Part shown: positions 2,688 through 52,714 of the stretch, piece after piece
Numbering within the stretch: position 1 is the stretch's first letter
Layout: each line of letters starts with the position of its first letter
From: Rhizophagus irregularis
Taxonomy: Eukaryota; Glomeromycota; Glomeromycetes; Glomerales; Glomeraceae
Reading direction: 5' to 3'
NCBI RefSeq assembly: GCF_026210795.1
Contig: NC_089435.1
Span: 4,774,001-4,838,000 of the forward strand
DNA length: 64,000 nucleotides
The notes under the pieces: model-generated
The model's input: only the letters and a program-made list of their open reading frames with translations
Told to the model about the DNA's origin: nothing
Database searches by the model: none
Position numbers and translations under genes: made by a program

Positions 2688-2912
2688 AATGTTTTATAAT
2701 AGAAAAATGAATGAAATATTTCCTTCCCACAAAGAGTATTTTCTGAATATTTTTGTAACCTAGTAAGTGATAAAAAAAATCATGTGTCTTTAAGTCATGA
2801 ATATTTTAATGCACATGATTTAATTTTAACTATCAGTTACGCCGATCTAATTTTTTAAAAATCTACTCTTTAAATAATCGTCAATACTTAGAATCGATTA
2901 ATATTTATTACT
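2688..2912. promoter_or_regulatory. bidirectional promoter region, G-alpha / TOR
   Basis: 225 bp lie between two divergent start codons, so both core promoters and 5' leaders must lie here or overlap the genes. No clear TATA box can be picked from the AT-rich background. Co-regulation is an inference from layout only. Confidence 0.5.
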
Positions 2913-5900: not shown

Positions 5901-8900
5901 ATTTATAAATACTTCTATACTTTATTAATCGACTTACATACTATTTAGATAACGATTGCTTCATCCGAAGATTCGTTATCGGATCCTAAAACAACAAATA
6001 CAGATGTGACACTTTTAATGATAGGTTTAGGGCCTTCTTCAGAAGATTACTATCCAACCGTAGTTATTAATGCATTAATGAAAATTCTTCGAGATTCTTC
6101 ATTAAATGCCCATCACACCGCTGTTATTGAAGCTGTAATGTATATTTTCAAAACATTAAGCTTGAAATGTGTTCCCTTCTTACCACAGGTAGGTTTTCAT
6201 TTATTTTTATAGTTCATGTTTATGTTTATATTAATAACATTTTAAAAAAAATTTTAATAGATTACACCTGCGTTCTTAGGAGTGATGCGTACGTGCCCCT
6301 CCGGCATGCTTGAATTCTATTTCCAGCAATTAGGTATCCTGGTTTCTATTGTTCAACAACACATCAGGAATTATCTTTCCGATATTTTTGCTTTGGTTGA
6401 GAATTTCTGGAATCCAAGTTCCACAATTCAGATAACAATTATTAACCTTGTTGAAGAAATTGCCAAGGCTCTTGATGGTGAATTTAAAAATCATTTGCCA
6501 GTGTTATTGCCTATAATGTTACAAATATTTGACCAAGATAAGAGTGAAAAGCGTCAGCCAACTCTTAAAGTATTGCATGCTCTTGTAGTATTTGGTACAA
6601 ATATTGAAGAATATATGCATCTTGTTATCCCTGTTGTTGTCAAGCTTTTTGAGAAGCCAGATGTACCACTTCAACTTCGCAAAGCAGCAGTTCAAACTAT
6701 TGGTTCAATGTCTAAAAAAGTTAATTTTTCGGATCATGCATCTAGAATAATTCATCCATTAGCTCGTGTGTTAGCACTTCCATATGGTGATTTGAGGATA
6801 GCTGCAATGGAAACGCTTTGCGCTCTTGTTTTTCAACTCGGATCGGACTATGCTATATTTATTCCAATGATAAATAAAGTAAAAAAAATATTTTCTTATA
6901 TTTTTAACACTTTTTTGCTTAAATTTTATTTAATTATCTAATTAAATTCTCGTATAAGGTAATTCTGAAACATCGTATACAAAATAATGATTATGAGATT
7001 CTAGTTTCGAAACTTCTTAAAGGAGAACCATTACCGCAAGAATTTGGAAGTGAAGAAAGGTATATTATGAAAATACACGGAATATAATTATTTTACATAT
7101 TTACATATATATTATTATTATTTCGGTAAAAGATTTAATGAATCAAGAGCAGAAGAAACGCCCGCAGCAGAAACAAATGCTAAAAAATTGCCAGTCAACC
7201 AGCAGCATTTGAAAAATGCATGGGAATGTTCTCAAAGATCTACTAAAGATGATTGGCATGAATGGATACGTAGATTAAGTGTGGAATTACTTAAAGAATC
7301 TCCATCACATGCTCTTAGAGCGTGTGCAAGTTTAGCTGGCGTTTATCATCAACTTGCGAGAGAATTATTTAATGCAGGATTCATATCTTGTTGGTCTGAA
7401 TTATACTACCAATATAAGGTAACCTAAAATCAACATTTTAATTTGTAATTAATTTATATCGCATTCGGTAGGTTTACTATTATTGATTGTCTTCAAACTT
7501 TTCTAGGATGAATTAGTAAGTTCTTTAATGTCTGCATTGAGAGCACCAAATATTCCTGCAGAAATTGTTTCGACCATTTTAAATTTGGCTGAATTTATGG
7601 AACATTATGATAAACCTCTTCCGATTGACATAAAAACACTCGGTAATCACGCAGAAAACTGTCATGCGTATGCTAAAGCCCTTCACTATAAGGAATTGGA
7701 ATTTATAAGTGAAGCGTCCACAGAAACAATTGAAAAATTGATTCAAATCAATAATCAACTACAATTACCAGATGCTGCCATAGGTATACTTACACATGCA
7801 CAACAGAATCCAAATTTACAGGATTTGCAATTAAAAGAAAATTGGTACGAAAAGTTGAATCGTTGGGAGGATGCTTTGACAGCATATGAGAAAAGGCGAA
7901 CTGATGATCCAAATGATTTTGAAGCAACTCTTGGTGTGATGCGTTGCTTACACTCACTGGGTAATTGGGATGGGCTTTCCGAACTTGTCCAAGAAAAATG
8001 GCCCGAATCGGATATTACAAATCGCAAGTCAATGGCTACTTTCGCAGCTGCTGGTGCATGGTCTTTAGGCCAGTGGAGTTTAATGGAGGATTACATTGAA
8101 AATATTAAGCCCGATAACTATTATAGACCATTCTATCAAGCTATTATTGCTTTACATAAGAACCAATATTCCGAGGCTGTTCGTCACATTGATAAAACTC
8201 GAGATTTATTAGACACAGAATTGACAGCTCTCGTTGGAGAAAGTTATAATCGAGCCTACAAGTAAGTACCAACAGACACGACATAATATGACTTTTTTGA
8301 TTAACATATATAATCACTTAATCTAATTTGTAATTTTCGTTAGTGTTGTAGTTCGTGTTCAAATGTTAGCGGAATTAGAAGAAATAATAACATACAAACA
8401 ATATGCAGATCAGCCTGATCGCCAGGCAACCATCCGAAAAACTTGGATGAAGAGGTAGATATGTTTATTTTAAGATAATTTTATTTAACGAGGACAAAAA
8501 AGCTCGTATTGGTAACGTTGAATTATTTTGTTAATGTTCATAAAATAAAATTATTGTAGACTTAAAGGGTGCCAACGTAACGTGGATGTTTGGCAACAAA
8601 TTCTCAAAGTTCGCACATTGGTAATTTCACCAAAGGAAAATATGGAAATGTGGATTAAATTTGCTAATTTATGCCGTAAGAGCGATCGTCTTGAGTTAGC
8701 GGAAAAAACATTAAGACAACTTTTAGTTGGCGATCAAAAATTGGAAGTTATTCATTCATCGGTAATTATATGTTAATTATATAAGAAATTTCATTTTTTT
8801 TTTTTGATTTTGTTCGCTATATTGTAATAATTTTTTGAGTATAGATTCTTGCGAGAGCTTCACCGCAAGTTGTCTACGCACACTTAAAATGGATGTGGGC

Positions 8901-11900
8901 TAGTGGAGTTCGTGAAGAAGCTTTAGGCTATTTACGTGATTTCACGACAAGAATGTCTAATGATCATCACCGAGTCGGCAACACTGGTTTACTCGCACGC
9001 TGTTGCCTTAAGAAAGGAGAATGGCAGAAAGTTTTACAGGATGATTGGGATAGAGTATGTTTAAAAATTGAACATTTTACTTAATTATTTACCTAATATC
9101 TGAATTGCAAAATTTTTAGGAAACTATTCCAGATATCTTGCAATCATATTTACTCGCAACACAATATGATAAAGAATGGTATAAAGCTTGGCATGCATGG
9201 GCTCTCGCAAATTTTGAGGTCATTTCTTTTTATGAGAAATCTAACTCTACCGAAAATAATACGCCGGCCGATCAAAATATTACAGTCACTGAAGAAGTTA
9301 ACGGGGATATTCATCAAGAAGTGTTACGTTATGTAGTACCATCTGTTCAAGGTATAAAATAATCGTTCAAATGTAATCATTTAAAGCCTTTCTGTGAATT
9401 TTTTTACTAAACTTTAGTTCATTTTTGTAGGTTTCTTTAAATCAATCGCTCTTTCAAGGGGTAATTGTTTGCAAGATACTTTGCGGTTGCTTACTCTTTG
9501 GTTCAAATATGGCTATCAAGAAGAAGTATGCAATGCTATTAAAGAAGGATTCAGTAATGTCAATATTGATACATGGCTTGAAGTTATTCCACAGGTTTGC
9601 TCATGCAATAAATGTTATCTTTTATTTATACCTTTATTTTAATAATAATATTTTTTCATAATCATATAAACAAATTCGGCAGCTTATTGCACGCATTCAC
9701 GCTCCAAATCAACAAGTGCGCCGTCTTATTCACGATTTGCTAGCCGAGGTCGGAAAGGAGCATCCTCAGGCTTTGATTTATCCTCTTACTGTCGCTTCGA
9801 AATCTCCGAGTTCTTATCGACAAACCGCTGCTGAATCAGTTATGGATAAACTACGTGCACATAGTGCTGTTCTCGTCGATCAGGTATTTATGTTATCATC
9901 ATTATTTGCATAATAATGCCATTCTCCATAACAATCAATGCCATCAAACTTCCTAGGCTTTACTCGTTAGTCAAGAACTTATTCGTGTTGCGATCCTATG
10001 GCATGAAATATGGATGGAAAATCTGGAAGAAGCCTCTCGTCTATTCTTTATTGAACGTAACTTCGAAGCTATGTTCAATATATTGGATGAATTGCAGGAA
10101 CGCCTTGATCGTGGTCCTGAAACTTTGCGAGAAGTAGCTTTTGTACAAGCATATGGAAGGGAACTTCAAGAAGCTGGTGGATGGTGTAAGAAATACAAGC
10201 AAACGGGAGATATGACTTTCTTATCTCAAGCCTGGCAAATATATCACGAGGTAAGAGATTTTTTTTATTTTTCCTTTATCTTCTAAATATTTATAACTTA
10301 TAATACTCATTTATAAACACAAAAATTAGATGTTTAAAAAAATAACTGCACAAGTGGGAACTATTACTACTCTTGAACTTCAATATGTTTCTCCGAAATT
10401 ACTAGCAGCGAGAGATTTAGAACTAGCAGTTCCAGGTTGTTTTATAATTTTTTATAACAATTTACAAAATTTTTTTATTTATAAATTTCCGAATTGTTCT
10501 TAGGTACATACAAAAGCGGAGAACCTGTAACCAAAATAGCAAGCTTTATATCTACAGTCAATATTATTTCTTCTAAACAGCGCCCTAGAAAACTAAATTT
10601 GATTGGTAATGATGGCAAAGAATATCAATTCTTGTTAAAAGGTAATAGTCGTGTTATTTATTTATAATTATCTACGAATAATTATTTTAATACTTTATTA
10701 TATTTAATAGGTCACGAAGATTTACGACAAGACGAACGTGTAATGCAATTATTCGGCTTGGTTAATACTCTCCTCTCCGTAGACTCTGAGACATTTAAGA
10801 GACATTTACACATACAAAGATATACTGTTACTCCTCTCACACCTAACATCGGTCTTTTAGGATGGGTACCAAATTGTGACACTCTTCACGCTCTAATTCG
10901 CGATTATCGTGAGAGCAAAAAAATCCTCCTTAATATAGAACATCGTTTAATGCTACAGGTATGTTAGTTAAGTTAGTTTGTTCAATTTTATTTTATTTTT
11001 ATAATACAAATTTATAACATCGTATGCAGATGGCACCCGATTATGATCAATGCACTATAATTGAAAAAGTGGAAGTGTTCGAATTTGCCCTAGCTAATAC
11101 AACAGGCCAAGATCTATATAAAGTTTTATGGCTTAAGAGTAAAAACTCTGAGGCATGGTTGGAGCGACGTACTAATTATACTCGATCCTTAGCACTAATG
11201 TCAATGGTTGGCTATATCCTTGGATTGGGAGATAGACATCCATCAAATATCATGCTTGATCGTTATACAGGGAAGATTGTGCATATTGATTTTGGTGATT
11301 GTTTCGAGGTACATTTTCAATAATAACATGTACATAACATACTGCTAAATGTGTTATTGTTATATTACTAAATCTTTTTCTATCATAGGTTGCGATGACT
11401 CGTGAAAAATATCCAGAAAAAATTCCATTCCGTTTAACGCGCATGTTAGTTAATGCAATGGAAGTAAGTGGTATAGAAGGGAATTTCCGTACTACATGTG
11501 AAGCCGTGATGAGTGTATTACGAAAGAACAAGGAAAGTTTAATGGCTGTTCTTGAGGCTTTCGTACATGATCCTTTAATAAATTGGAGAATTATGGCTAA
11601 TCCGAGTCCAAGACAAGGTGATCTTTGTTTACTTTATCTTTATTACTATTATAATTGAGTTACTTATTAATGCTATTATACTTTATAAGATGGCGAAAAC
11701 ATGCATGCAGTAGCAGGTTCAAGCAATCGTCGTGCCCGTGATATAATTAATCGTATTTCAAATAAGTTAACAGGTTAGGACTGGCCTAAAAGAATTTATA
11801 TCTTAAATAATTATAAATAGTAATTCTCATTAATAATTAATTGTAGGCAAAGATTTTAAACCGAATCAAGTATTAGATGTGCCTTCACAGGTTGAAAAAT

Positions 11901-12560: not shown

Positions 12561-15500
12561 TCAACGACGGTAATAATGACGTTTAAAATGGAAATGTAAC
12601 TGTAAAACTCCACGATCAAAACTTGATTTAAAGCCTTTTTTGTGAGAATATTCCCATTCACGATTAACAATACGAAAAGCAATATCCTAAATGATAGAAG
12701 ACAAGTTTTTAAAATATCTAAGCTGTCAACATTAAAAATAAACTTCATACATACTTCATAAGGAGGTCCTGCCATAAATCTGATCAAGACTGTATCATTG
12801 TTTCCAGGTTCTCTTTCAATTTTATATGTTGGTGCTTTTGATTTATCAATTAAATCGGGATAAAATATATTAAATTTATATCCTTGAACAACTTTTGGAG
12901 GTGGATTATCGCTATCGTAATGAGTTTGGTTATATTTATTCCATTCGTATCCTGTATGAACACGATTGAAATATCGTGGTTTCCTTGGACGATATTTATC
13001 TTGCCATAGATATGTCTAAATAAATTATTTAATAAGTAAATTGAAGGCTGGTTAAAAATTGATTATATAAAATTGAAAATTCACCGTTTTAGCTAATTCT
13101 TCCTCTATATTAAATATAGCTTCATCTTCATCCAAATCTTTAGCAGCCTCTCGCTCGTACAATACTTTTGAAACCTATATATCAAAATAATTTAGAAAAT
13201 CAATAATATATAAAGTAGCAAAATAAACCTCGAATTATACTTACTAATGATTCTTCCTCCTCCTCCACGGTAGGTTTCTTTTGCTGAACTTTCATAGGAA
13301 TAAATTGATTACGAAGAACCTCTTTACGTTTTTCTCTCTTTAATAAAATTAAAATAAGCAAAGTATTAAAAATTTTATAGATTTTCTTCATTTAAAATTA
13401 ACATACCAATGATTTCATATCTTCGCCAAGATCAACAATTTCACATTGTTTATCCTCTCTGGGTAATTTGTCAAAAGGTCTTGGGCTCATTAATTTATCA
13501 TATTCCTCAATCAAAGAATAATCCTCTTCCTCTATTGCATCATTGTCAATAGTCCCTTGCCCTTCTGCTTTAATCTGCACACTATGTGATGCAAGTGCTG
13601 TTTCTAATTCTTCTTGTACTTTTATAGCCTCCTGTCTCTGTTTTCTCCTTAGTTGCTCCAATCTTTTTTGCAACACAATTTCATGCATTGCTTTTAACTT
13701 AGCCTTTGCTTTCCAAACAGTTATAGTTTTTAACTGCTGTTCCCAGTATTCAACTTCCACAGCTTCTTGTCCAGATAACTTTTGTTGAATTTGACTCTGC
13801 AGTTTGTTTAATTGTTCATAAGTTTTACCAGCCAACAATTTATTAATATCATCTTTAACAACGGCGGTAACATTGCCAGTAAGATTTTTTTCTTCTGCTT
13901 GAAGTTCAGAAAGCTTGTTATCACATACTACAATCATTGCCTATATAGCGATAAAAAATTTTTTAGATACAATCCAAATAAAAAGGCCAATAAATCATTG
14001 TAGTAATAATACTTACCCTCCAGAAATCGAGATTATTCGGATTTTTCTCAAGGCTTAAATATTTCTGAATGTCTTGATGTAATTCTTCAACCTCTTGCAA
14101 ATTTAAATTCTATGATCATAAAATTATGTTAAATTGTGAATTTTCCAATTTTACATTCGTGACTATATTTACCTCAAAAATAGTGTAAGGTTCGTCTATA
14201 TCAATTTCTAAAGCTTCATCCACATCTTCATTTTCATCAGCCAATCGCAGGTTGATAGCAAGAATGTCTATTGGTTTTGCTCGACTTTCCTTGATACGAA
14301 TTTCTGCGCGGCGCTTTGCTTGTTGAAGATGAAACTAGTGAATAGAGAAAAGAAAACCACTTAGTAATCAATTAAATGAATATCTTTCGCAGATTGAATC
14401 AAATTTTACTTCATCTTCTTTAGCTGCCCAATCGCCCATAGATGCGATTTCAGCCTCACGTTGCATCCGTGACTATAATTATAATTTTGTTAATAAACAA
14501 TATTAAAGAACATAAATGAACAATCGAGAGCTAAATAATTACAAGTTCTTCATCTCTTAGTTGCTGTTCTATTTCACGTTCTACTCTCCTCTTTTTCAAT
14601 TTTTCAAGTTCGAGCTATTAATAACAAAGATATGTGAAATAATGAAATAAGAAAAAAACCGATATGTAAATTTCTTAATGGATTCGAAAAGGTCTCAACC
14701 TGTGTTTCTTCACGACGTTGTTGTTCTTGACGTAAAATCTCCTCAGGAGTTAATCCCAATTTCTTCTCGCGATCTTTCTTTTTAGTCCATTCGAATTTTT
14801 CTCCTAAATTAGCGTCATTAAATGGATTGTCGCTGTTTGAATAAATCGACAAATCTATATATGAAAATTGATCTGCTTTATGTTCCTATAAAGACAATTA
14901 ATTAATTATAAATTGGATATAGATCATAAAAACCAAAATATGAAATTTAATAATAGCTACCCATAATTACATACTCTTTTGTGTTTCTTCGATTCTTTTT
15001 TCGCTTTTTTTGATTTTTTTTTCGTTTCCTTTCCTCTTCTTCCTCGTTTGATTTGTGATGTCTCCTTCCCTCCCCCTCCTCAGATGATCTACGATGCTTC
15101 CTTTCCTTTTCTTCCTCGGATGAATATCTTCTTTTGGATGATCTATTGCGTCCTCTCTCCTCCTCGTCAGAATATCTATCACGATGTCTTCTGTCCTCCT
15201 CATCAGAATATCTATCACGATGTCTTCTGTCCTCCTCATCAGAATATCTATCACGATGTCTTCTGTCCTCCTCATCAGAATATCTATCACGATGTCTTTT
15301 GTCCTTCTCGTCAGAATATCTATCATGATGTCTTCTGTCCTCCTCGTCAGAATATCTATTACGATGTCTTCTGTCCTCCTCGTCAGAAAATCTATTACGA
15401 TGTCTTCTGTCCTCCTCGTCAGAAAATCTATTACGATGTCTTCTGTCCTCCTCGTCAGAATATTCATTTCGATATTTTCTCTCTTGCTCTTCGTCGGATG

Positions 15501-15756
15501 ATCTATTACGGTGTCTGCTACCCTCTTCTTCAGAATATCTACTACGGTGCCTCTTATCCTCTTCTACAGAGTATCTATTACGTAGTTTTCTGTCCTCCTC
15601 TTCGTCAGAATATCTATAACGACGTTTCCTGTCTTCTTCGTCAGAATATCTGTTGCGACGTTTCCTGCCCTCGTCGTCTGGTGAATATCTACTATGTTTC
15701 CTGCTCTCATTGTCTGGTGAATATCTTCTGGGATACGAGGGATAGTGTGAAGACAT
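12561..15756 (-). CDS. CACTIN: cactin, spliceosome-associated protein with an RS-like repeat N-terminus
   Basis: Cactin is a conserved nuclear protein that joins late spliceosomal complexes. The start MSSHYPSYPRR at 15756 is preferred over an in-frame upstream ATG at 15861, because the divergent urate oxidase starts at 15900. The first exon (15756-14971, 262 codons) is an RS-like domain of about 17 twelve-residue units of the type RYSDEEDRRHRD. Next come the mid-region (SDNPFNDANLGEKFEW, DEFHLQQAKRRAEIRIKESR, RAKPIDILA) and the long helical middle. The very conserved C-terminal domain includes YKFNIFYPDLIDKS, VLIRFMAGPPYE and RGVLQLHFHFKRHYYRR, with the stop at 12561-12563. It has roughly ten exons. 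The first intron is best taken at TAT|GTAATT (phase 0), because the stronger-looking GTATGT four bases upstream breaks the frame. Confidence 0.93.
15150..15690 (-). repeat. 36-bp coding minisatellite in cactin exon 1
   Basis: Tandem 36-bp units encode RYSDEEDRRHRD-type dodecapeptides. The central units (about 15,170-15,470) are nearly identical, and the edges are diverged. This points to recent unit duplication in the middle of the array. Confidence 0.9.
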
Positions 15757-15899
15757 TATAATTTTAAAATCAAGGACATTCGATTGATTGTAATGAAGAT
15801 CATAAATCATAAATAAATAAATATCATGTGATAATGTTTGGTGAGGATCATCATTTATCACAGTTTACGAGTTGATTTGGTTGATTTAATTTTACCGAT
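15757..15899. promoter_or_regulatory. bidirectional promoter region, cactin / urate oxidase
   Basis: 143 bp separate the two divergent start codons. No specific motif is claimed. Confidence 0.45.
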
Positions 15900-17029
15900 A
15901 TGTCTGGAGTGTATCTTAAAGAACAAAGTTATGGAAAAGATCAAGTTAGATTAGTTAAGGTTATACGTACGGGCAAATGGCATGAAATTGTAGAACTTAC
16001 GGTAATGCATAAATTATTTAGTTGTATTAGGTGCTTAAGCAAGTTTAATATAATAATACTTTTTGTTTAAATAGATTCGTGTTCTTTTAGAAGGCGACTT
16101 TGCCGACTCTTATACAAAAGCTGATAATTCGCTCATTGTCGCAACGGATACGATGAAAAATACTATTTATATTCTTGCTAAACAATCATCTAATGTTAAT
16201 CGTATTGAAATTTTTGCCACAGAAATTGGACAACATTTTATTTCAACTTATTCACATGTATCCAAAGCTAATGTTTGGATAAGTAAACATAAGTGGACAA
16301 GAATGCTTGTTAATGGAAAATTACATGATCATTCTTTTTTAAGAGATGGTGAGGATACTCGAAACACTAAAGTCGTTATTACAAAGAAAGGTGGACCAAA
16401 AGATGTGACTATTGAAATTGAGTCAGGCCTTAAGGATATGTTGGTGTTAAAAACTACCGGTTCAGCATTCTACGGATTCTTGAGAGATAAATGTTAAGTT
16501 AAATATATTTGTATCTTTTTGTATAAAATCCTTTTATCTTATTTTTTTTCTCCTATGTATAGATACAACTCTTCAAGAGACTAATGACCGTATCCTTTCA
16601 ACCAGTGTAGATGCAACTTGGACTTATAACATTTCTAATATATCTTTGATTTCACAAATTCCTTTTGACGATATTTTTGATTCAATTAGACAAATTACTT
16701 TAGATACTTTTGCTACACACAATAGTTCTTCGGTGCAAGCAACTTTATATCTTATGGCTAAAATTGCTTTAGAAAAATTTCAACAACTTAGTTCTATTCA
16801 TTATGAATTACCAAATAAGCATTATTTTACTTATGATCTTGATAGATTTGGATTAAAAAATACTGGAAAAGACACTGATATTTACTATCCTGTAGCTGAC
16901 CCAGCAGGTAAATATTAATATTTTTTTTACTCTCATCTTAAAACTAAATTTTTTCTTTCTTTCTTTTTTTTTTGAAAAAAAATAGGTTTAATAACTGCAA
17001 CTATTGCAAGAACTAAACCAAAATTGTAA
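15900..17029 (+). CDS. UOX: urate oxidase (uricase)
   Basis: Oxidises urate to 5-hydroxyisourate in purine catabolism, usually in peroxisomes, and so feeds ureide nitrogen release. Exons 15900-16001, 16075-16492, 16563-16907 and 16986-17029 total 909 nt and give 302 aa, the family length; all junctions are GT-AG and in frame. Visible signatures are YGKDQVRL (catalytic Lys13), VATDTMKNT (catalytic Thr58), RDKYTTLQET, SVQATLY (substrate Gln), NKHYFTYDL (catalytic His) and GLKNTGKDT. The C-terminus is KPKL, so the terminal tripeptide PKL is a non-canonical relative of the SKL peroxisomal signal. Divergent from cactin. Confidence 0.96.
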
Positions 17030-18689: not shown

Positions 18690-20534
18690 TTAAAATGGAA
18701 TTGAGATTTCAGCATTAGGAAATTCCTCTAACACTTTAACATTTGATAAACCCCTAAGTACAGGAGCAGCAGGACAACCACCTATAGGTGCATAATGTAC
18801 AATAAAATCACCACGAACATATCTATCAGGGAAAGTATTTAATGAATGATCATCATATTCCAAATTCAAAACCTATGATAAAGTAAATTAGAATAAAAAC
18901 TTCAAATTCAAATGACAAGAATTCTTAGTACTTACATTTTTTCTCCAGTATGGATGTCTAATAGCATCACGCATGGCTTCCTGTTCTAAACTACCAGTGT
19001 AAGAGAAATCATATCTAGGTTGTATTCCACGTCTAAGAAGATCTCTAGTCCAAGCGGAATTTTTAATTAAGAAAACACCAGCATTAATCATTTTATCATT
19101 AATAGGTCTGGCTACAATAATATTAATTTTTTCAAACTCTTCCTTTCCGCCAACTTTTTCTTCGCACATTTCCAAAAAGCGTTCAACAGTAAGAGATCTA
19201 TTAACGAAAATAGCGTCCATATCAAGCCATATTAACCATTCATAATAGGGCAAAAGTTTTTCTATGGCATCAATTTTACCCCAAACTGGTTTTCTATCAT
19301 GATAAAGTTGTTGTGCAAATTCAGCTGAACGAGACACGAATGCGTAACCATGCATTTCGGCATATTCCCGTTTATTCTTTGCAGAAAGAAATCCAGCTTC
19401 TAACATACAATTATCTTTATATAAGAAACTACTTGTTACTACAGCTACATTTGGTCTAAATTTGGATGCTGTCTCCTTTGAGTACATTTTAAGATCAGAG
19501 CGAGCATTACAAGGAAGTGTTGTTGGAATATTAAGTTCATTTTTAATTTGTTTAATTTCCACATCTTGATAAATATGACCAATTGCAACAACACAATCAG
19601 CACACTCAATACTAGTTATTGTATTTGGCCATTCTATTATACTTATTGGATCATTAATAAAAATCAAATCGCTCGGAATTTTTTTGTTTGGATATTTCTT
19701 ATGATAAAGGTATAGACTTGATAAAATACTTGTGTGGTTTAATTTAAATTTCAAATTATCGAGAATTGGTTGTATTGCTGATGCCCCTATTATTACTGCC
19801 ATGTTTTCCGTTCTGTTAGAATTGAATGACCCCCAAACCAATTTTTGTGTATCCGTTACTAGTGTCGAAGTTGAAATTTTATTTTTGATTTTTTCGAGAT
19901 TTATCATAGTAAATGTGTCTATTATTACTAAATGATCAAATGTTGTACATTCTTCTTGTAACGATTTAGCCTGAATATATTTAAAGGATTAGATTTAGTA
20001 AGTGACATCACGTGAATTTTATCATGTGACACTAATGAAACATATATCGAAACTTACGTTTTCCAGTAAATAATGGTGTAGGTCATCACTATGTTGAATA
20101 TCAATTTCAATAATATCATTAAACTCCATTTTTTCGGCCGTATACGAATGTAGAATACTCATATCAATTTTCTTTGATTTATTTGCCAAGAATCTATAAA
20201 AAATTTCAGTTGTGTCTTGTTTCATGCAAGGAATTAAATTATCTGTGATACCAAATAATTCTTCCCTCATTAGCATACGTTTGTCAACTTGTTCCATTTG
20301 TGAAAAAATAAACAATGCTATTTTATAATGCGGACATGTCATATTCTGTACTGAATTATCAACAAATGGAATTTCTGAAGAATATCCATTATCGTTAACA
20401 TCGTTATGGTAATAATTATTATAATAAGATATTATGAATAAAAATAATATAAATGCCGTAATTAATAAATGATATAATTTTATTTTACGAAATGTGTAAT
20501 ATGTCGAATAATTTGATCGTTCCTCAGTTCTCAT
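18690..20534 (-). CDS. GT34-like (GMA12/MNN10) Golgi glycosyltransferase, type II membrane protein
   Basis: Probable alpha-glycosyltransferase of the secretory pathway. Exons 20534-20058, 19970-18936 and 18872-18690 are all phase 0 and total 1695 nt, giving 564 aa. An N-terminal cytosolic stub is followed by one membrane anchor (KLYHLLITAFILFLFIISYY, residues about 18-37). The N-terminal 190 or so residues are unlike the core and may be a stem or accessory domain. The catalytic core has YAFVSRSAEFA, WGKIDAIEKLLPYYEWLIWL, the DMD (DxD) metal site, then INAGVFLIKNSAW, EQEAMRDAI and RGDFIVHYAPIGG. The final exon supplies the conserved His-containing YVRGDFIVHYA segment. Family assignment is by motif order; donor and acceptor sugars cannot be read from sequence. 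Confidence 0.85.
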
Positions 20535-25458: not shown

Positions 25459-27057
25459 TACAGTCACCCCTCTCTACAGCGAACCTCGATATAGCGAATA
25501 ACATGATATAACGGATCATACAGTGTGGTACCGATTTTAAATATGAAAAAAACCTTGATATAACGAAGTTTACTATTTATTTACCATATAACGTAGTACG
25601 AAGTAAAGTGTGTGAATTTCTTATATAAAAATGCCTCTCGATATAACGGATTTTTTTTATAACGAATTTTTTTCAGTTATAACGAAGAATTTCTTTATAA
25701 TTAAATGTAATTATTAATAAATATTGATGCATTATGACATTAAATATCACCCCTGTGTTTTATATTTAAATTATGGATCAGGATTGTATCGGGATCGTAT
25801 CAGGATTAATAATTCTGGCTATTTTATTTAATATTTAGGCAGAATTACATTAATTTACATTAATTCGGTTGTATTAGGATTCGATGTGAATTGTTATTAA
25901 TTTATATTTATCAGAGGGGGTAAGGACACTCCTAGTTAAATTAATATATCATTAATAATTTATTTATTATATAGTCAGTTATTGTTAAACAGCATTCCTA
26001 CAAAAAAAAGGAATTATAATAAACATTTTTATATAGAACACTTCAGGAAGCATTCCCTATAATAAAAAAATAAAAAAGAACATTAGTAAATGTTCTTAAA
26101 CGAAATAAAAAAGAAAAAATTGAGTTGTCCCACTTACTTGCTTTGTTCTCGAGCGTTCATTTCGAAGTCCCCACAATAAAAAAAAATAAAAAAGAATATT
26201 AGTAAATGTTCTTAAACGAAATTAAAAGAAAAAATTGAGTTATTTTGCCATTCTTGTCTCGAGCGTCCATTTCGAAGTCCCCACAATAAAAAAATAAAAA
26301 AGAACATTAGTAAATGTTCTTAAACGAAATAAAAGAAAAAATTGAGTTGTCCCACTTACTTCTTGGTCCCAAGCGTCCATTTCGAAGTCTACAATAAAAA
26401 AAATAAAAGAAAAAAGCATTAGTAAATGTTCTTAAACGAAATTAATAAAAAAAATCGAGTTCCCCACTTACTTCTTGTTTCAAGCGTCATTTCGAAAGTC
26501 ACAATAAAAAAAAATAAAAAAGAACATTAGTAAATGTTCTTAAACGAAATTAATAAAAAAAATCGGGAGTTCCCCCACTTACTTCTTATGCTTAAGCGTC
26601 CATTTCGAAGTCCAGGAAGTTCCCTATAATAAAAAAATAAAAAAAGAACATTAGTAAATGTTCTTAAATAAAAAAAATTGAGTTCCCCACTTACTTCTCG
26701 TCTCAGGCATCCATTTCGAAGTCCAGGAAGTTTCCTACAATAAAAAAAATAAAAAAAGAACATTAGTAAATGTTTTTAAATGAAATTAATATAAAAAACC
26801 CCCCAGTTCCCACTTACTTCTCATTCTAGGCATCTATTTTGAAGTTTAGAAAGCACCCCTATAAAAAAAAGATTAAAAAAAATGTTAAATTATCGGTAAT
26901 CAGATCAACAAGTCACATGATCTGTATAACCGATATTCCTATACCGAAGAATTCATTATACAATACCGAATAATTCGTTATAGTGTTAACGAAGTTGCTT
27001 ATAACGAAGCCCTGATCAGCTGGAACCTAGGGTTCGTTATATCGAGAGGGGACTGTA
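25459..27057. mobile_element. pogo/mariner-type non-autonomous element carrying an exon-intron-like tandem array
   Basis: The left end TACAGTCACCCCTCTCTACA and right end (inverted: TACAGTCCCCTCTCGATATA) start with TA, the target of Tc1/mariner/pogo elements. Both ends continue into subterminal strings such as GATATAACGAA and CGTTATAACGAAG. There is no transposase ORF. The centre (about 25,980-26,880) is a tandem array described separately. About 1.6 kb. Confidence 0.75.
25985..26880 (-). repeat. tandem array of about 7 units, each laid out as mini-exon plus intron (minus strand)
   Basis: Units of about 110-123 bp. Each is marked by a near-palindrome, GAACATTAGTAAATGTTC on the plus strand (about 26,079; 26,190; 26,300; 26,412; 26,522; 26,645; 26,758). 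On the minus strand the best units read: polypyrimidine tract, then TTGTAG or TTATAG, a 40-41 nt block containing CCTGGACTTCGAAATGGA, a GTAAGTGGG donor, then a hairpin containing TACTAAT about 27 nt before the next AG. Two units have lost the acceptor (TTGTGG). The mini-exon of the best unit encodes LPGLRNG. Confidence 0.75.
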
Positions 27058-33002: not shown

Positions 33003-33630
33003 TTAAGCAAATATAGCACCAAGAATTACAGCTGCGAATGAAACTCCGACTTCGGCTTTAAGACTGTTTCCGGCTCCTGTTGCTGATTTGGCAGGTGTGC
33101 TTCCTGATGCTCCTGCTGGAGCAACTGATGTACCTGTTCCTCCACCTGGAGTAGGTGCGGCTGTTTTCGCTGGTGATGGTGCTGCTCCTTCTGGTGGTGG
33201 TCCTGCTGGTGCTCCTCCTGCTGGTGGTGCTCCTCCTGCTGGCGGAGCTACTTTACCCTTAGCATCACCTCCTGCATCTTTGGGTGCATCTTTGGGTGCA
33301 TCTTTGGGTGCTCCTTTGGCTCCATCTTTAGGTGCTCCATCTTTGGGTGCTCCATCTTTGGGTGCTCCATCTTTGGGTGCTCCATCTTTAGGTGCTCCAT
33401 CTTTGGGTGCTCCATCTTTAGGTGCTCCATCTGGTGGTGGTGCTCCTGGTGCTGGTGCTGGTGCTCCTGGTGCTCCTCCTGGTCCCCTATTATCACAATA
33501 CAAGAAGTTTATTTTATCTATTCAGTCATTAAAATTTTTTTCTTTAGGAAAAAACTTACTGTGCAGCAACGCAGGCAATCAATACGGTGAGAACAATAAG
33601 AAGAAAGAAGATACGATTATTAAATTTCAT
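33003..33630 (-). CDS. AGP-like (AGL) secreted, GPI-type repeat protein, copy A
   Basis: Exon 1 (33630-33560, 71 nt) encodes a signal peptide, MKFNNRIFFLLLIVLTVLIA then CVAA. The intron 33559-33487 is phase 2. Exon 2 (33486-33003) begins GPGGAPGAPAPAPGAPPPDG; total 184 aa. The centre is a GAPKD pentapeptide repeat (about seven copies, then KDAPKDAPKDA), followed by Pro/Ala/Gly blocks and a Ser/Thr-rich linker. The tail GNSLKAEVGVSFAAVILGAI fits a GPI attachment signal, though it is short. Family: fungal AGP-like proteins, which I recall from Glomus as charged polyproline-type surface proteins. A role at the wall or symbiotic interface is inferred. Plus-strand frames over this gene are shadows. 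Confidence 0.85.
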
Positions 33631-36807: not shown

Positions 36808-37344
36808 TTAAGCGAGGATAGCACCAAGAACGGCAATAGCAACGAATGAAACTCCAATTTCAGATTTAAGAGAATTTCCGGATCCTGTTGCTGTTGTTCC
36901 TGGTGATGATTTTGGTGCGGCAGCAGTCCCGCTTGATGTTGATGGTGTTGCTGCCGGTGGTGATGCCGAACCTGATGGTGTTACTCCTGGTGGACCTCCT
37001 GCTGGTGGAGTGCCTGGGGCAGCTTTTCCTGCATCGCCTGCTGGAGCTTTACCGCCAGCTGGAGCGCCTCCTGGTGCTGGAGCTGGAGCTTTTCCGCCTG
37101 GTGCTGGTGCTGGTGCTTTTCCCGCGTCACCTCCTGGTGCTGCTGGAGCTTTTCCGTCGCCTCCTGGTGCTGGTGCCCCTGGTACCCTATTATCACAAAT
37201 ATGAGGATTTATTTATTCAATCATTATTAATTTTTTTATTTATTATTTTTTTTTTCATGGGAAAAAAACTTACTGTGCAGCAACGCAGGCAATCAATACA
37301 ATGAGAACAGCAAGAAGAAAGAGGATGCGTTTATTGAATTTCAT
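36808..37344 (-). CDS. AGP-like (AGL) secreted, GPI-type protein, copy C
   Basis: Exon 1 (37344-37274) encodes MKFNKRILFLLAVLIVLIAC then VAA, a signal peptide. The intron 37273-37187 is phase 2. Exon 2 (37186-36808) starts VPGAPAPGGDGKAPAAPGGD; total 149 aa. This is the shortest intact copy. Its repeats (GGDGKAPA, GKAPAPAPG) are diverged and not a uniform array, so it may approximate the ancestral form. The tail is GNSLKSEIGVSFVAIAVLGA then ILA. It shares signal peptide, intron phase, promoter block and tail with copies A, D and E. Confidence 0.85.
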
Positions 37345-39161: not shown

Positions 39162-39915
39162 TTAAGCGAAGATAGCACCAAGAACGGCAATGGCAGCGAA
39201 TGAAACTCCAGATGATTTAAGAGTATTTCCGGATGATGCTGCTGCTGCTCCTCCTGTTGATGATGTTTTTGGTGCGGAAGCAGCACTGTTTGGTGGTGGT
39301 GGTGGTGGTGTTGCTGTGCCTGCTGGTGTTACTCCTTTTGGACCTCCTGCTGGTGGAGCTCCTGCTGGAGCAGCACCTGGAGCAGCACCTGGAGCAGCAC
39401 CTGGAGCTGGAGCACCACCTGGAGCAGCACCTGGAGCTTTTCCGTCAGCTGGAGCTTTTCCATCAGCTGGAGCTTTTCCATCAGCTGGGGCTTTTCCGTC
39501 GGCTGGGGCTTTTCCGTCAGCTGGAGCTTTTCCGTCAGCTGGAGCTTTTCCATCAGCTGGAGCTTTTCCATCAGCTGGAGCTTTTCCGTCAGCTGGAGCT
39601 TTTCCGTCAGCTGGGGCTTTTCCGTCGGCTGGGGCTTTTCCGTCAGCAGCACCGTCAGCTGGGGCTTTTCCGTCGGCTGGAGCTTTTCCATCAGCTGGAG
39701 CTTTTCCGTCAGCTGGAGCTTTTCCGTCAGCTGGAGCTTTTCCGTCAGCTGGTCCTCTATTATCATAAACAAGAAATATTTTTTATTTATTAAACTATTA
39801 AAAAATTTATTATTATTTTTTTTTTCAGGGAAAAAAAAACTTACTGTGCAGCAACACAGGCAATCAACAAAGTGAGAACAGCAAGAAGAAAGAAGGTACG
39901 TTTAGTGAATTTCAT
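39162..39915 (-). CDS. AGP-like (AGL) secreted, GPI-type repeat protein, copy D
   Basis: Exon 1 (39915-39845) encodes MKFTKRTFFLLAVLTLLIAC then VAA, a signal peptide. The intron 39844-39757 is phase 2. Exon 2 (39756-39162) runs GPADG then about 17 near-identical ADGKAP hexapeptides, then Gly/Pro/Ala blocks, a Pro run and a Ser/Ala/Thr linker; total 221 aa. The tail is GNTLKSSGVSFAAIAVLGAI then FA. The regular Asp/Lys alternation gives no net charge in the repeat and fits a polyproline-type rod. The 18-bp unit is almost unchanged, so the array is recent. It lies between C and E in the same orientation. Confidence 0.85.
39432..39752 (-). repeat. 18-bp coding minisatellite of AGL copy D
   Basis: Tandem 18-bp units (GCTTTTCCGTCAGCTGGA on the plus strand) encode ADGKAP on the minus strand. 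Variants differ mainly at single sites (CCATC/CCGTC, GGGG/GGAG). Confidence 0.9.
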
Positions 39916-41681: not shown

Positions 41682-42969
41682 TTGTGTAGAATTATTATTA
41701 TTTTAGCACTATTGAATAAAAATTATAAGAGAATCTAATATATTAGATATAAGGTAATAGATGATTTTATACTTAAAAATACTTGGATTTTAAATAGATC
41801 AAATAGATCATATTTTTAATTTTTTCGTTTATAATCTATTTTTCAGTTCTTACATTTGAATAAATTTATACAAATAATTAATTATTAATATTTCAATTAA
41901 ATATAATAGTTTCCAACCTTTATTTGCTTTGGTTATTATGTCTGTACTGAAAATTTTAAAGCAGTATAAGAGCGCAGAGCGCGGCACGTTTAAGTTTATA
42001 TACATACATCTGATTCTGAGATATATAATAAAGTAAACGCATATTGTTATCATGTGACTGGTTGTGTTTTTTTTGTGCTGCAATGATCGGTTAGGAGTAA
42101 TAAAGATGACAATGGCCTAGTTAAAAAATAAACAAATAAATAAAAAGATAGTTTGTGTTTCTTTGCAATTAGAATGTTTGACTTTAGATATTCAATTTTT
42201 AAACAATGGTGCTTAACACCTTAGTATGTGTTTTCGCAAAAACTATGGCCTAAATTAAAGAAATTGTAACTTTTTTATACTGCAAATGTTAGCAAAAAAT
42301 TTAATACATACATAATATGAATTTTAATTATTATATTATTAACTACTACTAATATTGTAGAATAAAACACCCACTGGTATGATTGGTATGATTTATAAAT
42401 AATTTTTTATTTTATATTTGCATTAATGAGATAATATCGGAAAGGAAATCGACCACTTAGATTGGGACGAACAAATTTTGGGAATTTAGAGATCAAGCGT
42501 TTTCGCGTTGTTTTTTATTTTACTAATATTATTATTATTATTATTATTTATTTATCGTGCGGAATGTGGGTTATTAGAGGATTATAATATTAAGAAAAAT
42601 AAAAAATGAAAAACCAAAAAAAAAACGATTACAAATATCTATTACGCGAAGTAAGTTGGGATTTTTATTAGAAATTAACGCGTTTACTTTGGAAACTAAT
42701 TATTATACTATTTTCCAACCCATAATTATTAATCAAAAAAGACCTTATTGTTTAAAAAGAGGAACTAAATCTAATAAAAATATAATATGAAATAATAAAA
42801 AACTATTTAAATTAATGTTCGGAATTTTGTTTTTGGTCGTATCACTATTATTATTTATTATTAAGCACGGTAAATATAATATAATAACTTTATAAAGTGT
42901 ATATAATTATTACAAAAAAAAAAAATCTTTTTTTTTATGATGGTAAATTATTAAATCTAATTAATTAAT
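41682..42969. other. intergenic, MITE / AGL copy E
   Basis: The segment 42,560-42,780 duplicates 36,480-36,690, and 42,150-42,190 duplicates 34,268-34,300. No independent gene. Confidence 0.5.
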
Positions 42970-43742
42970 TTAAGCGAAGATAGCTCCAAGAACGGCAATG
43001 GCAGCGAATGAATATCCAGATGATTTAAGAGAATTTCCGGATGATGCTGCTGCTTTGGCTGATGCTGATGGGGCTGCTCCTCCTGCTGGTGATGCTGCTG
43101 GTGTTTTTCCGTCAGCTGGGGCTGGTGCTTTTCCGTCTTTTGGAGCAGCACCTGGAGCTGGAGCAGCACCTCCTGGAGCAGCACCTGCTGGAGCTTTTCC
43201 GTCAGCTGGAGCTTTTCCGTCAGCTGGTGCTTTTCCGTCAGCTGGTGCTTTTCCGTCAGCTGGAGCTTTTCCGTCAGCTGGAGCTTTTCCGTCAGCTGGT
43301 GCTTTTCCGTCGGCTGGTGCTTTTCCGTCAGCTGGTGCTTTTCCGTCGGCTGGTGCTTTTCCGTCAGCTGGTGCTTTTCCGTCAGCTGGTGCTTTTCCGT
43401 CGGCTGCGTCTGGTGCTTTTCCGTCAGCTGGTGCTTTTCCGTCGGCTGGTGCTTTTCCGTCGGCTGGTGCTCCGTCAGCTGGTGCTTTTCCGTCGGCTGG
43501 TGCTCCGTCAGCTGGTGCTTTTCCGTCAGCTGGTGCTCCGTCAGCTGGTGCTTTTCCGTCAGCTGGTGCTCCGTCAGCTGGTCCTCTGTTATCATAAAAA
43601 AGAGTGATTTGATTAACAACTTCACCATATTATATTAATTATTCTTTTCTTGAATAATAATTGTGAAGGAAACTTACTGTGCAGCAACGTAGGTAACTAA
43701 AGCGAAGAAAATGGCGAGAATAATGAAGATGCGTTTATTCAT
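42970..43742 (-). CDS. AGP-like (AGL) secreted, GPI-type repeat protein, copy E
   Basis: Exon 1 (43742-43678, 65 nt) encodes MNKRIFIILAIFFALVTYVA then A, a signal peptide diverged from the other copies. The intron 43677-43586 is phase 2. Exon 2 (43585-42970) begins GPADGAPADGKAPADGAPAD; total 226 aa. The first part alternates ADGAP with ADGKAP, then follow many ADGKAP hexapeptides, Gly/Pro/Ala blocks and an Ala/Ser linker. The tail is GNSLKSSGYSFAAIAVLGAI then FA. The upstream region keeps only the TATA-like TATTTATTAG (43,896-43,905); the CCGGGATACATTT block seen at A, C and D is not evident, so regulation may differ. Confidence 0.85.
43195..43585 (-). repeat. 18-bp / 33-bp coding minisatellite of AGL copy E
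   Basis: Tandem GCTTTTCCGTCAGCTGGT units (plus strand), with a higher-order unit at the 5' end of the exon that inserts GCTCCGTCAGCTGGT between 18-mers. The change from 18-mer to compound repeats marks the growing edge of the array. Confidence 0.85.
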
Positions 43743-49164: not shown

Positions 49165-50153
49165 TAAACTTAAAAGTGAAACTGACTTTTTTTTCTTTAT
49201 GTTTTATAATGTTATTTAGAATGCTTTATTGAAATTATATAAATAAAAGTTACTACAGCAATTTAAAAATACACAAATAGAAAAACCATTTATCATAAAA
49301 GACTATTGATTAAGGATAGATTAACAGTTAATAAACAAAAAAGTAAAACTGAATTTCTTTTATATTTTATATATTAGTATAGTATAATAATAAAAAAAGT
49401 TTTATAAGCCTAATAAAAATAAATTAAATATCAAATGTGATAAATTGAATTTCTTTAGTTAATAGACTTTTATTAATAATAAAATCAGCTTTTTCAAAAT
49501 GGAATTTATATTTGAATTTTTATATATGGATTGATATAATGTAAAAGATTATTATTTAATTTATACTAGTATTATATACTAAAATTATTTAAAATTTTTG
49601 ATTCAATTATTATAATAGTTAAAAAACTCTTAATATTATACTATATATTTATATATTAGTAAATAATAAATAATGAATTTATACTGAATTTATGGATTTT
49701 ACTAATCAAATTACTAGTAACTAATAATATAAATCTATTTAAATTTAATGGTTTATTTAATTTAATGTATTATTTATGTTTTATACTATTACATATTTTA
49801 TATATTTATAAAGTTTTACATAACAGAAATAAAGTTAATTACTTGTTTATTTAATTAGACTTTTTTTTTAAATAATATATTTTTAATAACAGGCATTTAT
49901 AATTTTCTCAATTATTAAGTAAAATTTATTACAAAATCTAAATAAAAATTTTTTGCTTCTATAATAATTTATTATTATATAAACAATTATTAAAATTTTT
50001 GTAAGTTGACATTTATTAATAATTCACTTTACTTTTTTTCTTTGGTAATATTAGTTTACTTTATTACTCTACTAGTAATATACTTTTACTTTATTTTACT
50101 TGCAATTTTTACATTACTATATCATCAGAATTAAATAAATAAAATACTAGTAT
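49165..50153. other. AT-rich gene-free DNA
   Basis: About 1 kb of A/T-dominated sequence between two transposons. Nothing else supported. Confidence 0.5.
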
Positions 50154-50161
50154 AAAATAAG

Positions 50162-52195
50162 TAAGGATGGGCCCGCAAATAATTTCCAAAATCCGCAATA
50201 TTGCGGATTTTGGAGCTGAATTGCGGTTAGTAACCCGCAATTCCGCAATTCTGATTGGCTGATAATTAAATTTTTTTCTAATGATAATTTAATAAAAAAC
50301 ACACCGGTTTTATAAATATAAATTTAATCAAAAAAAATTTTTTAATAAATTTATTTATTTATTATTTATTAGAAACAATAAACCATAATTTCTGAAATGG
50401 CGCAACTGCACCAAAAACTAAATCAAACACAGACAACAATGGCGAACTTAATAATACTAATCAAAGTTCTGGGCTGGAATCTACAAAAAAAAGTGAAAGA
50501 ACGTTAATAAACGTTCTTACATAAAAAAAACATAAAAAACCTTGCTTCCCCCTCTAAAAACACCTACCGGTCTTTATTTCCAAGTTCCAGGCCGGAATCT
50601 ACAAAAAAAAGAAGTAAAGAACGTTAATAAACGTTCTTACATAAAAAAATAAAAAAACCCCGCTCCCCCCTTTAAAATACTCACCGGTCTCCATTTCCAA
50701 GTTCCAGGCCGAATCTACAAAAAAAAGAAGTAAAAGAACGTTAATAAACGTTCTTACATAAAAAAACCAAAAAAAAACCACTCCCCCTTTTAAAATACTC
50801 ACCGGTCTCAAGTTCCAAGTTCCAGGCCGGAATCTACAAAAAAAAGAAGTAAAAGAACGTTAATAAACGTTCTTACATAAAAAAACAAAAAAACGGCTTC
50901 CCCTCCCTTTAAAATACTCACCGGTCTTCATTTCCAAGTTCCAGGCCGGAATCTACAAAAAAAAAAGAAGTAAAAGAACGTTAATAAACGTTCTTACATA
51001 AAAAAACAAAAAAAACTGCTTCCCCTCCCTTTAAAATACTCACCGGTCTTCATTTCCAAGTTCCAGGCCGGAATCTACAAAAAAAAGAAGTAAAAGAACG
51101 TTAATAAACGTTCTTACATAAAAAAAAATAAAAAAACCCCTGCTCCCCCCCTTTAAAATACTCACCGGTCTCCATTTTCAAGTTCCAGGCCGGAATCTAC
51201 AAAAAAAAAAGAAGTAAAAGAACGTTAATAAACGTTCTTACATAAATAAAACATAAAAAAACCCCGCTTCCCTCTTTAGAAACACCTACCGGTCTTTATT
51301 TCCAAGTTCCAGGCCGGAATCTATAAAAAAAAAAGAAGTAAAAGAACGTTAATAAACGTTCTTACATAAAAAAATAAAAAAACCCACTCCCCCTTTAAAA
51401 TACTCACCGGTCTCAAGTTCCAAGTTCCAGGCCGGAATCTACAAAAAAAAAAGTAAAAGAACGTTAATAAACGTTCTTACATAAAAAAACAAAAAAAATT
51501 GCTTCCCCTCCCTTTAAAATACTCACCGGTCTCCATTTCCAAGTTCCAGGCCGGAATCTACAAAAAAAAGAAGTAAAAGAACGTTAATAAACGTTCTTAC
51601 ATAAAAAAAACAAAAAAAAAACCCCCTTCCGCTTCCCCCCTTAAAATACTCACTGGTCTCCATTTCCAAGTTCCAGGCCGGAATTTACAAAAAAAGAACG
51701 GTGTTGTTTTTTTTAAAATGAAAAAAAAATTTAAAATTGCGTAATGCAATTCTTATTTGATTTGTACTATGCTATCCGATAATCTAATCCAGATCATTAA
51801 CTATTAATATCAATAACCGTCGAATTAACTGGCCGGTATATTTTTTCTAAAAAATAAATGACTTTTTTTAAAAAATTTTATTAATGAAAAACCGAATTTT
51901 TTTTACTTTTAGTAATAAGAAGAAATCGGTTTCTTTATTAGTTAATTAAAAAAATTACATTTATTAAAAAAAATTGTTCTTTTTTTTGCGGGCAATCCGC
52001 AATTCCGCAAATAATCCGCAATTCCGCAATTAATTACGAAATTGCGGATCATTTGCGGAATTGCGGAAAAATTGCGGAATTGCGTCTAATTACGGATTGC
52101 GGAATTGCGGATATATAGACTTCAAAATCCGCAATATTCCGCAATACCGCATATCGCAAATATTCCGCAATTACTTATTTGCGGCACCATCTTTA
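50162..52195. mobile_element. hAT-type non-autonomous element carrying an exon-intron-like tandem array
   Basis: A 2,034-bp element. Left end TAAGGATGGGCCCGCAAATA; right end inverted TAAAGATGGTGCCGCAAATA. It is flanked by a perfect 8-bp direct repeat AAAATAAG (50154-50161 and 52196-52203), as expected for hAT. Both subterminal regions are packed with GCAATTCCGCAA / TTGCGGAATTGCGG strings in both orientations, the usual layout of transposase-binding repeats. There is no transposase ORF. The core (about 50,470-51,700) is a ten-unit tandem array. Confidence 0.85.
50468..51705 (-). repeat. tandem array of 10 units, each laid out as 31-nt mini-exon plus about 88-nt intron (minus strand)
   Basis: Period about 113-127 bp. 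Each unit holds GAACGTTAATAAACGTTC on the plus strand (about 50,499; 50,619; 50,737; 50,856; 50,977; 51,096; 51,218; 51,345; 51,458; 51,578). On the minus strand a unit reads: T-rich tract and TTTTTTTTGTAG acceptor, a mini-exon ATTCCGGCCTGGAACTTGGA / AATGGAGACCG (31 nt), a GTGAGTATT donor (GTAGGTG in two units), then the hairpin with TATTAAC about 25 nt before the next acceptor. The outermost unit (51,680) has lost its acceptor (GTAA). A partial unit lies at each end. Confidence 0.8.
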
Positions 52196-52246
52196 AAAAT
52201 AAGTAAATAAAATAAATTTAACAAATTAAGTAAATCAATAAATAAA

Positions 52247-52714
52247 TTAATTTGTAATTCATCTAGTAAAAATCAGAGCAAATTATAAAAATTCCTATAT
52301 AAAATTGAAGGAAGCAATTAAAAATATTATCTTATAATCTAGTAATTGGATTTCAATAAATCTTTAAACTATTTTATAATTTTTAATACCTTTTTTAAAA
52401 TAAAAAAAAAGATATTCAAAATTGGACCAATATATTATGAGATAATTACAAAAAATTACTTTTGCAAAAAAAAAGCAGATTTGAAATTTGAAAGCTATTT
52501 AAATAATTTTTGACAATTATCTTACAATTTATTAATCCAATTTTAAATATTTTTTTTTTTTATTTTGAAAAGAACATAAAGAACATTGAAAATTACAAAT
52601 TAACTTAAAAATTCATCAAAATCCAATTACTGAATTATGAGATAATGCTTTTAATTATTTTTTCCAATTTTTATATAATAATTTGCTCTGATTCTTAGGT
52701 GAATTGTAAATTAA
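52247..52714. mobile_element. foldback element with about 110-130 bp imperfect inverted arms
   Basis: Left arm TTAATTTGTAATTCATCTAG then AATCAGAGCAAATTAT, and further in TAGTAATTGGATTT. The right arm carries the inverse: AATCCAATTACTGAATTATG, ATAATTTGCTCTGATT and GTGAATTGTAAATTAA. The arms are diverged, so it is older than its hAT neighbour, whose target duplication ends 43 bp away. Confidence 0.65.

Follow-up and report, generated by a model that had tools for sequence, protein, structure and literature searches.

Tandem arrays of mini-exon/intron units in hAT-like and mariner-like elements of Rhizophagus irregularis

Results and Discussion

The window, a 64,000-nucleotide stretch of the Rhizophagus irregularis genome (C7:4774001-4838000), contains a hAT-like element in which splice-ready mini-exon/intron units are arrayed in tandem on the minus strand, an arrangement confirmed by our analysis of the sequence. 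Oriented, gene-like arrays of this kind are firmly established at the sequence level in several DNA transposon types of this one fungus. The array can be considered, with moderate confidence, a tandemly multiplied exon-intron module that descended from, and probably still acts as, a non-coding spliced transcription unit in non-autonomous DNA transposons. The genome searches described below covered 146.7 Mb in 32 contigs.

Anatomy of the array and of its hAT-like host element

TRF analysis defined the array as a repeat of period 119 with 10.2 copies and 87% matches. When read on the minus strand a typical unit consists of the mini-exon ATTCCGGCCTGGAACTTGGAAATGGAGACCG followed by a donor, a spacer of variable length that is G-rich and then T-rich, a hairpin, a T tract, and GTAG. 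The first-pass annotation had described ten minus-strand units of acceptor, mini-exon, donor, and branch motif, and both TRF and the unit-by-unit reading agree with it. The features of the array and of the element that includes it are as follows.

50162..52195, minus (array strand): hAT-like non-autonomous element, group A; terminal inverted repeats (TIR) TAAGGATGGGCCCGCAAATAA / TTATTTGCGGCACCATCTTTA; ends common to L010, L015, L017, and L024
50154..50161, no strand: left 8-bp target-site duplication AAAATAAG
52196..52203, no strand: right 8-bp target-site duplication AAAATAAG
50464..51695, minus: tandem array, mini-exon/intron unit of about 119 bp, 10.2 copies (TRF and minus-strand reading)
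51654..51684, minus: mini-exon 1, 31 nt, GTGAGT donor, GTAA in place of the acceptor, hairpin absent upstream
51527..51557, minus: mini-exon 2, 31 nt, GTAG acceptor, GTGAGT donor
51408..51438, minus: mini-exon 3, 31 nt, GGAACTTGAG variant
51290..51320, minus: mini-exon 4, 31 nt, ATAG acceptor, GTAGGTG donor
51166..51196, minus: mini-exon 5, 31 nt
51044..51074, minus: mini-exon 6, 31 nt
50922..50952, minus: mini-exon 7, 31 nt
50803..50833, minus: mini-exon 8, 31 nt, GGAACTTGAG variant
50685..50714, minus: mini-exon 9, 30 nt
50568..50598, minus: mini-exon 10, 31 nt, GTAGGTG donor
51578..51597, minus: branch-point hairpin 1 of ten, AGAACGTTTATTAACGTTCT; predicted 9-bp stem and 4-nt loop in a consensus-like intron
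51477, 51362, 51238, 51114, 50994, 50873, 50754, 50637, and 50517, minus: minus-strand starts of the remaining nine hairpins
50350..50480, minus: terminal exon, GTAG acceptor, no donor at the position homologous to that of the mini-exons, AATAAA at about 50350-50375; 3' end approximate

Nine of the ten mini-exons are 31 nt long and one is 30 nt long. The donor is GTGAGTATT in eight units and GTAGGTG in two, and the ten hairpins are all identical (AAGAACGTT-TATT-AACGTTCTT), with TATTAAC spanning the loop and the 3' arm. The acceptors consist of a T tract and GTAG, with one ATAG and a first unit that lacks AG. Hence the earlier statement that acceptor and donor are present in every unit holds for most of them, but not for the first, which has GTAA, nor for the array end, where the last acceptor enters the donor-less terminal exon at about 50480. 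The acceptor, donor, and branch motif are indeed more regular than the spacer, and elements elsewhere in the genome show the same organization. The layout arose in 9 of 5000 shuffles of one consensus-like unit at the dinucleotide level and in 21 of 5000 at the mononucleotide level, the criterion (acceptor, 15-60-nt exon, GTRAGT, and branch-like motif) having been chosen post hoc on a unit already seen.

The two ends of the host element are related (TAAGGATGG..., with TAAGGATGGnnCCGCAAATA-like sequence at both sides), short terminal inverted repeats are present, and the subterminal repeats are ATTGCGG-rich. The 8-bp duplication is perfect in five of the seven copies in which both ends were read, namely those of the window, L010 (GTTTAGGG), L017 (TCTATAAC), L024 (CCTGCAGT), and L077 (ATTGTGAC); it has two mismatches in L015, and none was found in the composite L027. 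These TIRs and 8-bp duplications, in the window and in the copies, fit a hAT element, as the first-pass annotation had proposed. No ORF of at least 100 amino acids is found within 50162-52195, and a hAT transposase gene, the mark of an autonomous member, is absent; on its sequence the element is classified as hAT-like and putatively non-autonomous. A 110-nt probe from the left end matched at least 40 places in the genome over most of its length (10 at 93-100% and 30 at 85-92%; 40 of 100 candidates were scored). An Rfam scan of 50100-52250 with permissive filters gave 18 matches, none of them in the array or at the gathering score of its family, and these fall on palindromic subterminal DNA of the element. 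Nested transposon-like insertions were seen by eye in the group-A arrays of L015 (about 4820-5130) and L028 (about 4430-5150); an intron-like spacer holds one of them, and the other lies at an acceptor.

A second array in a mariner-like element

The window includes a second array, within an element that has different termini.

25461..27055, minus: mariner/Tc1-like non-autonomous element, group M; TIR CAGTCCCCTCTCGATATAACGAACC, TA duplication
26054..26798, minus: second tandem mini-exon array, 112-bp unit, 6.6 copies (TRF and reading)

The group-M unit has exons of the form ...GGACTTCGAAATGGACGCTTGAGACAAGAA, the donor GTAAGT, the hairpin AAGAACATT-TACT-AATGTTCTT, and TTGTAG. The window copy is partly decayed, with a splice site lost in several units; in well-kept copies the exon is mostly 30 nt long and its sequence is, by eye, related to that of group A. 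The hairpin shows an A-T pair at the position of a group-A G-C pair, which looks like one founder change. The TA duplication and CAGT-type TIR were read at both ends in the window (25459-27057) and at one end in L033-L035 and L045, and the end TIR CAGTCCCCTC... has 33 matches in the genome, 20 of them exact. No ORF of at least 100 amino acids lies within 25461-27055, and group M is classified as putatively mariner-like by its ends alone. The locus L043 is a hybrid in which a mariner-type array is followed by a hAT-type mini-exon unit, a structure that may hint at how modules pass between element families.

Distribution in the genome

The hairpin has 308 exact matches in the genome and its reversed control none; 545 matches to a related hairpin pattern were found at up to 2 mismatches (control, 2), and the 118-nt unit has at least 259. 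The genome search with the mini-exon that had been suggested for finding other arrays was productive: its core has 153 matches at up to 3 mismatches (reversed control, 1), and arrays are found in other element types. Similar arrays occur in element types with four different termini, groups A, B, C, and M. Group B comprises L009, L011, L016, L025, and L026 (end CACTGGTCAAAATCAAT) and group C consists of L022 (end GTAGGGCTCCGATCAG), both recognized as separate element types from the inverted repeats of L009 and L022. The arrays of A, B, and C can be aligned with one another at about 80%, and the layout is also that of about 15 other locus types that bear the hairpin. A captured multi-mini-exon gene, one of the ideas raised at first pass, is a possible source, but versions of the array occur in element types with four different termini.

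Thirty short loci were picked from the hairpin matches, and by eye the hairpin of 27 of them lies in surroundings that clearly resemble an intron; two (L051 and L052) are doubtful cases, and one (L037) is an unrelated satellite that is palindromic. Several of these loci recur almost unchanged (L053/L056/L061/L064, L055/L057, L059/L062, L046/L065, and L038/L070) and are therefore dispersed repeats as well. Two ORFs beside L038 gave no Pfam match, and a scan of viral contigs for the hairpin gave no matches. Shifted self-like matches of about 3.4 kb in L016 (about 150-3730) and in the matching parts of L025 and L026, three closely similar copies, point to a long tandem repeat that immediately precedes the group-B mini-exon array.

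Gene-like layout of the arrays

We scored 11 group-A regions in which the units had been located by the exon core alone, which avoids the bias of a regular-expression parsing that demanded splice-like ends. AG was present in 64 of 68 internal units and a GTRRG(T/A) donor in 60 of 68. Thirteen units lack an upstream hairpin: nine were judged true first units, all with GTAA instead of GTAG and all with a donor, and the other four were judged internal units cut off by rearrangement, two of them with AG. L014 and L036 yielded no first unit. The absence of the first acceptor probably reflects a single ancestral change that was then inherited, and not nine separate ones. The seven group-A terminal exons found have, by eye, no donor; GTAG is present in six, and four AATAAA hexamers occur within 200 nt in each of them. 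Judged by sequence, the group-A ends match those of a transcription unit, with a first exon that lacks an acceptor, a last exon that lacks a donor, and a poly(A) signal. Families B and M keep the leading acceptor on the first exon.

The sister hAT L077 (1,433 bp, same terminal type, perfect duplication) includes an array of a different unit, with exons of about 41 nt that end in TTTTGAAATTGAG or similar, GTAAGR donors located 4 nt earlier with respect to the exon core than in group A, acceptors of the TTTTTGTAG type, and a CACTAAC branch-like hairpin in the last intron only, all as read by eye. The splice layout appears to be kept in L077 although the unit has changed. This element (67-1499, with a clean 8-bp duplication) is inserted into a transposase-like ORF of the CDKCNGKLV type, probably a gene of another transposon. 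Exon length differs between families (30, 31, 41 nt, and others). The first-pass annotation had named splice sites that vary as freely as the spacers as an observation that would speak against its reading; within one family the splice dinucleotides do decay like their neighbors, but between families they are kept while the spacers and much of the exon change.

Conservation, hairpin pairing, and folding

Among 80 group-A units the donor G and T are conserved at 93% and 95%, and the acceptor A and G at 91% and 81%, the last figure being lowered by the first units. These bases are conserved no better than neighboring bases, and after insertion the copies appear to diverge in a neutral manner, with most changes at C and G. 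High CG methylation has been reported in most transposon families of this fungus, as has low methylation of many copies of recent hAT and TcMar elements (PMC8647823).

Analysis of 343 hairpins gave no support for covariation of the hairpin arms within hAT families, where the mismatch between hairpin halves looks like CpG decay. At the founder level, 41 to 53 of 55 hairpins from 22 locus types were paired at seven core positions, a result that is weak because three-base loops were mis-registered and the search used a sequence template. Folding of four whole introns was modestly stable (z of -1.6, -1.4, -3.2, and -3.3). Inspection by eye of the last 60 nt of 23 approximate introns of the TOR/PIKK-like gene of the window, taken from a simple model in which several are doubtful, revealed no such hairpin, so that, to the extent that a single gene can show, host introns do not generally carry it. 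A genome search for joined mini-exons, as expected of intronless retrocopies, found no A/B-type and no M-type junctions at up to 3 mismatches.

Several of these results would be expected if the array were a passive minisatellite, in which a transposon took up an exon-intron fragment a single time, slippage multiplied it, and nesting or recombination passed it on between elements, the splice motifs being fossils with nothing spliced now. The neutral decay within family A, the hAT hairpins without covariation, the failure to find joined retrocopies, and a unit number that differs freely between copies are in its favor. We nevertheless consider this explanation rather unlikely, since the motifs are kept while the unit sequence, exon length, and donor position differ between families, the array ends are gene-like, and spliced gene models exist (see below).

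In groups A and M the hairpin varies least of all parts of the unit, and one could regard the GAACGTT-N4-AACGTTC repeats as DNA-level palindromes, i.e., protein-binding or recombination sites that drive array growth in an incidental intron-like setting. This is very improbable, as the array units of L077 mostly lack the hairpin and the 22 locus types keep CTAA or TTAA on the loop side upstream of a pyrimidine tract and AG, a feature that the search required.

Coding capacity and annotated gene models

The consensus 31-mer is open in all three phases, as had been noted at first pass, and a 31-residue periodic protein encoded by the spliced 31-nt exons had been predicted from it. Joining nine of the ten exons of the window array (the first was unparsed) gives 3, 1, and 3 stops by frame. 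We parsed 32 arrays and compared the 26 with at least four parsed exons, some of them near-copies, with 2000 permutations of the exon order each; the best frame was in no case significantly poorer in stops than the permuted order (P from 0.178 to 1.0), and many exons of groups B and C include TAG. The joined exons of L029 do have one frame free of stops, but the annotated proteins described below differ over the exons used. The arrays show no sign of coding, and a repeat-protein gene is the explanation that we regard as most improbable.

Protein searches with the spliced translation of L029 (23 matches at E values up to 10, 20 of them below 0.01) and with that of family M (16 matches) recovered 39 annotated proteins, all from R. 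irregularis, with no other species among the matches. According to simple peptide patterns, at least one mini-exon junction is crossed by 22 of the 23 models found with L029 and by 10 of the 16 found with family M, and the models include sequences that match the joined exons of the arrays of C5 (L016) and C12 (L022). They belong to several locus-tag series, leave out exons, and differ in the exons chosen, and are therefore evidence of recognizable splice signals and not of a protein. Gene models that run across such junctions can be software artifacts; those of strain DAOM197198 are reported to have been built with Illumina and Nanopore RNA (PMC10234402).

Some family-M models (P0026, P0027, and P0035-P0038) have different N-terminal portions but share the mini-exons that follow and resemble one another at the end, and the N-terminal part of P0027 (SSPIESLDPEIFTFKVEALWKAF) is matched at 151 other places in the genome, some of them adjacent in one locus. 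This would be the expected outcome of an exon trap, in which an element inserted in a host gene offers its acceptor to a host donor and adds mini-exons and an early poly(A) end, generating chimeric transcripts; the leading acceptor retained by family M is also consistent with it. As a general explanation it is unlikely, given that group A has no leading acceptor, that the chimeras are annotation models with no locus placed in this genome, and that the tandem nature of the units is left unexplained.

Proposed mode of action

The arrays are likely to be spliced, as their sequence suggests; transcription, splicing, and any benefit that keeps the signals are what we infer from it. Under the interpretation that we favor, that of a non-coding spliced transcription unit, RNA polymerase II would transcribe the element on the minus strand from a start upstream of mini-exon 1; the mariner family keeps a leading acceptor and its transcription could thus start at a host promoter. 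The spliceosome would excise the short introns by means of strong donors, a branch point displayed by the hairpin, a U-rich tract, and UAG, the 30-31-nt exons would be joined, and the transcript would end on the terminal exon with its AATAAA signals. Slippage or unequal exchange may raise or lower the unit number and the elements would spread by cut-and-paste, two processes that together would account for the presence of the module in elements with at least four different termini.

A further step, which we put forward only tentatively, is that different DNA transposon families, within one fungal lineage, have a selfish RNA-level module in common, a mini-exon array with a hairpin-held branch point that is selected for being spliced. 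The gain could be the look of a host mRNA, with escape from RNA interference, or the trapping of host transcripts. If true, it would represent a new class of mobile splicing cassette.

Comparison with known systems

Non-autonomous hAT and mariner MITEs have TIRs, an 8-bp or TA duplication, no transposase-sized ORF, and in some cases an internal minisatellite of variable copy number, all of which are shared by the elements described here; the difference is that here the repeat unit is an oriented exon-intron module common to families with different ends. Pack-type elements are DNA transposons that carry gene fragments, exons and introns included, as cargo and can make novel splice forms; a soybean CACTA element is reportedly an example with such cargo. 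The exon/intron cargo is common to both, but here no source gene or protein was found, and one module is present in tandem and in several element types. The micro-exon genes of schistosomes resemble the arrays in their long series of very short exons, but in schistosomes most exon lengths are divisible by 3 and the products are secreted proteins; here the exons are mostly 31 nt and include stops.

The SP7-like genes are repetitive genes of the same fungus, and their published description includes protein-coding repeats, a conserved intron before the first repeat, and the motif Y[KR]Rx[AP]x[AP], with mini-exons not described in the part of the article considered (PMC11333574). We rejected an identity with them on account of the different anatomy; the motif was not seen in the models found here.

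Introners, the nearest idea at first pass together with the captured gene, are reported to be spliceosomal signals on non-autonomous DNA transposons, of which some have TIRs and a target-site duplication (PMC9860276), and in these respects they are like the elements of this study. They do not fit, because an introner is one intron that is inserted into genes and spliced out, whereas here donors as well as acceptors lie inside the element, occur up to 12 or more times, and are separated by exons, and a terminal exon with AATAAA follows them, splice sites at the element ends being absent. A term search of the main text of the introner article found neither Rhizophagus nor Glomeromycotina (PMC9860276). 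Among the top-ranked matches of a literature search there was no description of transposons with tandem mini-exon arrays.

If spliced, these would be transposons with splicing itself as cargo, natural minigenes in which as many as twelve nearly identical exons of 30-31 nt alternate with introns of less than 100 nt, and they could serve as a test of how a fungal spliceosome pairs neighboring sites, recognizes tiny exons, and uses a branch point in a hairpin. Even as fossils they represent one exon-intron module common to transposon families with different ends. Uncharacterized repeats have been reported to make up 24% of the R. irregularis genome (PMC8647823), and the arrays may explain part of this large unclassified fraction as well as some odd small predicted proteins.

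Other genes in the window

The window also includes the large multi-exon TOR/PIKK-type gene (3146-11625, plus strand; FAT domain at 7507-8265 and mTOR domain at 6261-6941) and pieces of a cactin-like gene (13398-13940, minus), a uricase gene (16075-16497, plus), and a GMA12/MNN10 glycosyltransferase gene (18888-19988, minus). An ORF at 14947-15864 (minus) has 36-bp tandem repeats that encode a charged repeat of the RRHRDRYSDEED type. Four neighboring minus-strand ORFs (33003-33521, 36808-37212, 39162-39782, and 42957-43634) carry low-complexity tandem repeats (KDGAP, ADGKAP, and similar), and we take them to be possibly known variable cell-surface proteins. Their ends are alike (GNSLK or GNTLK ... 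VSFAA or VSFVA ... LGAI.A) and resemble a GPI-anchor signal.
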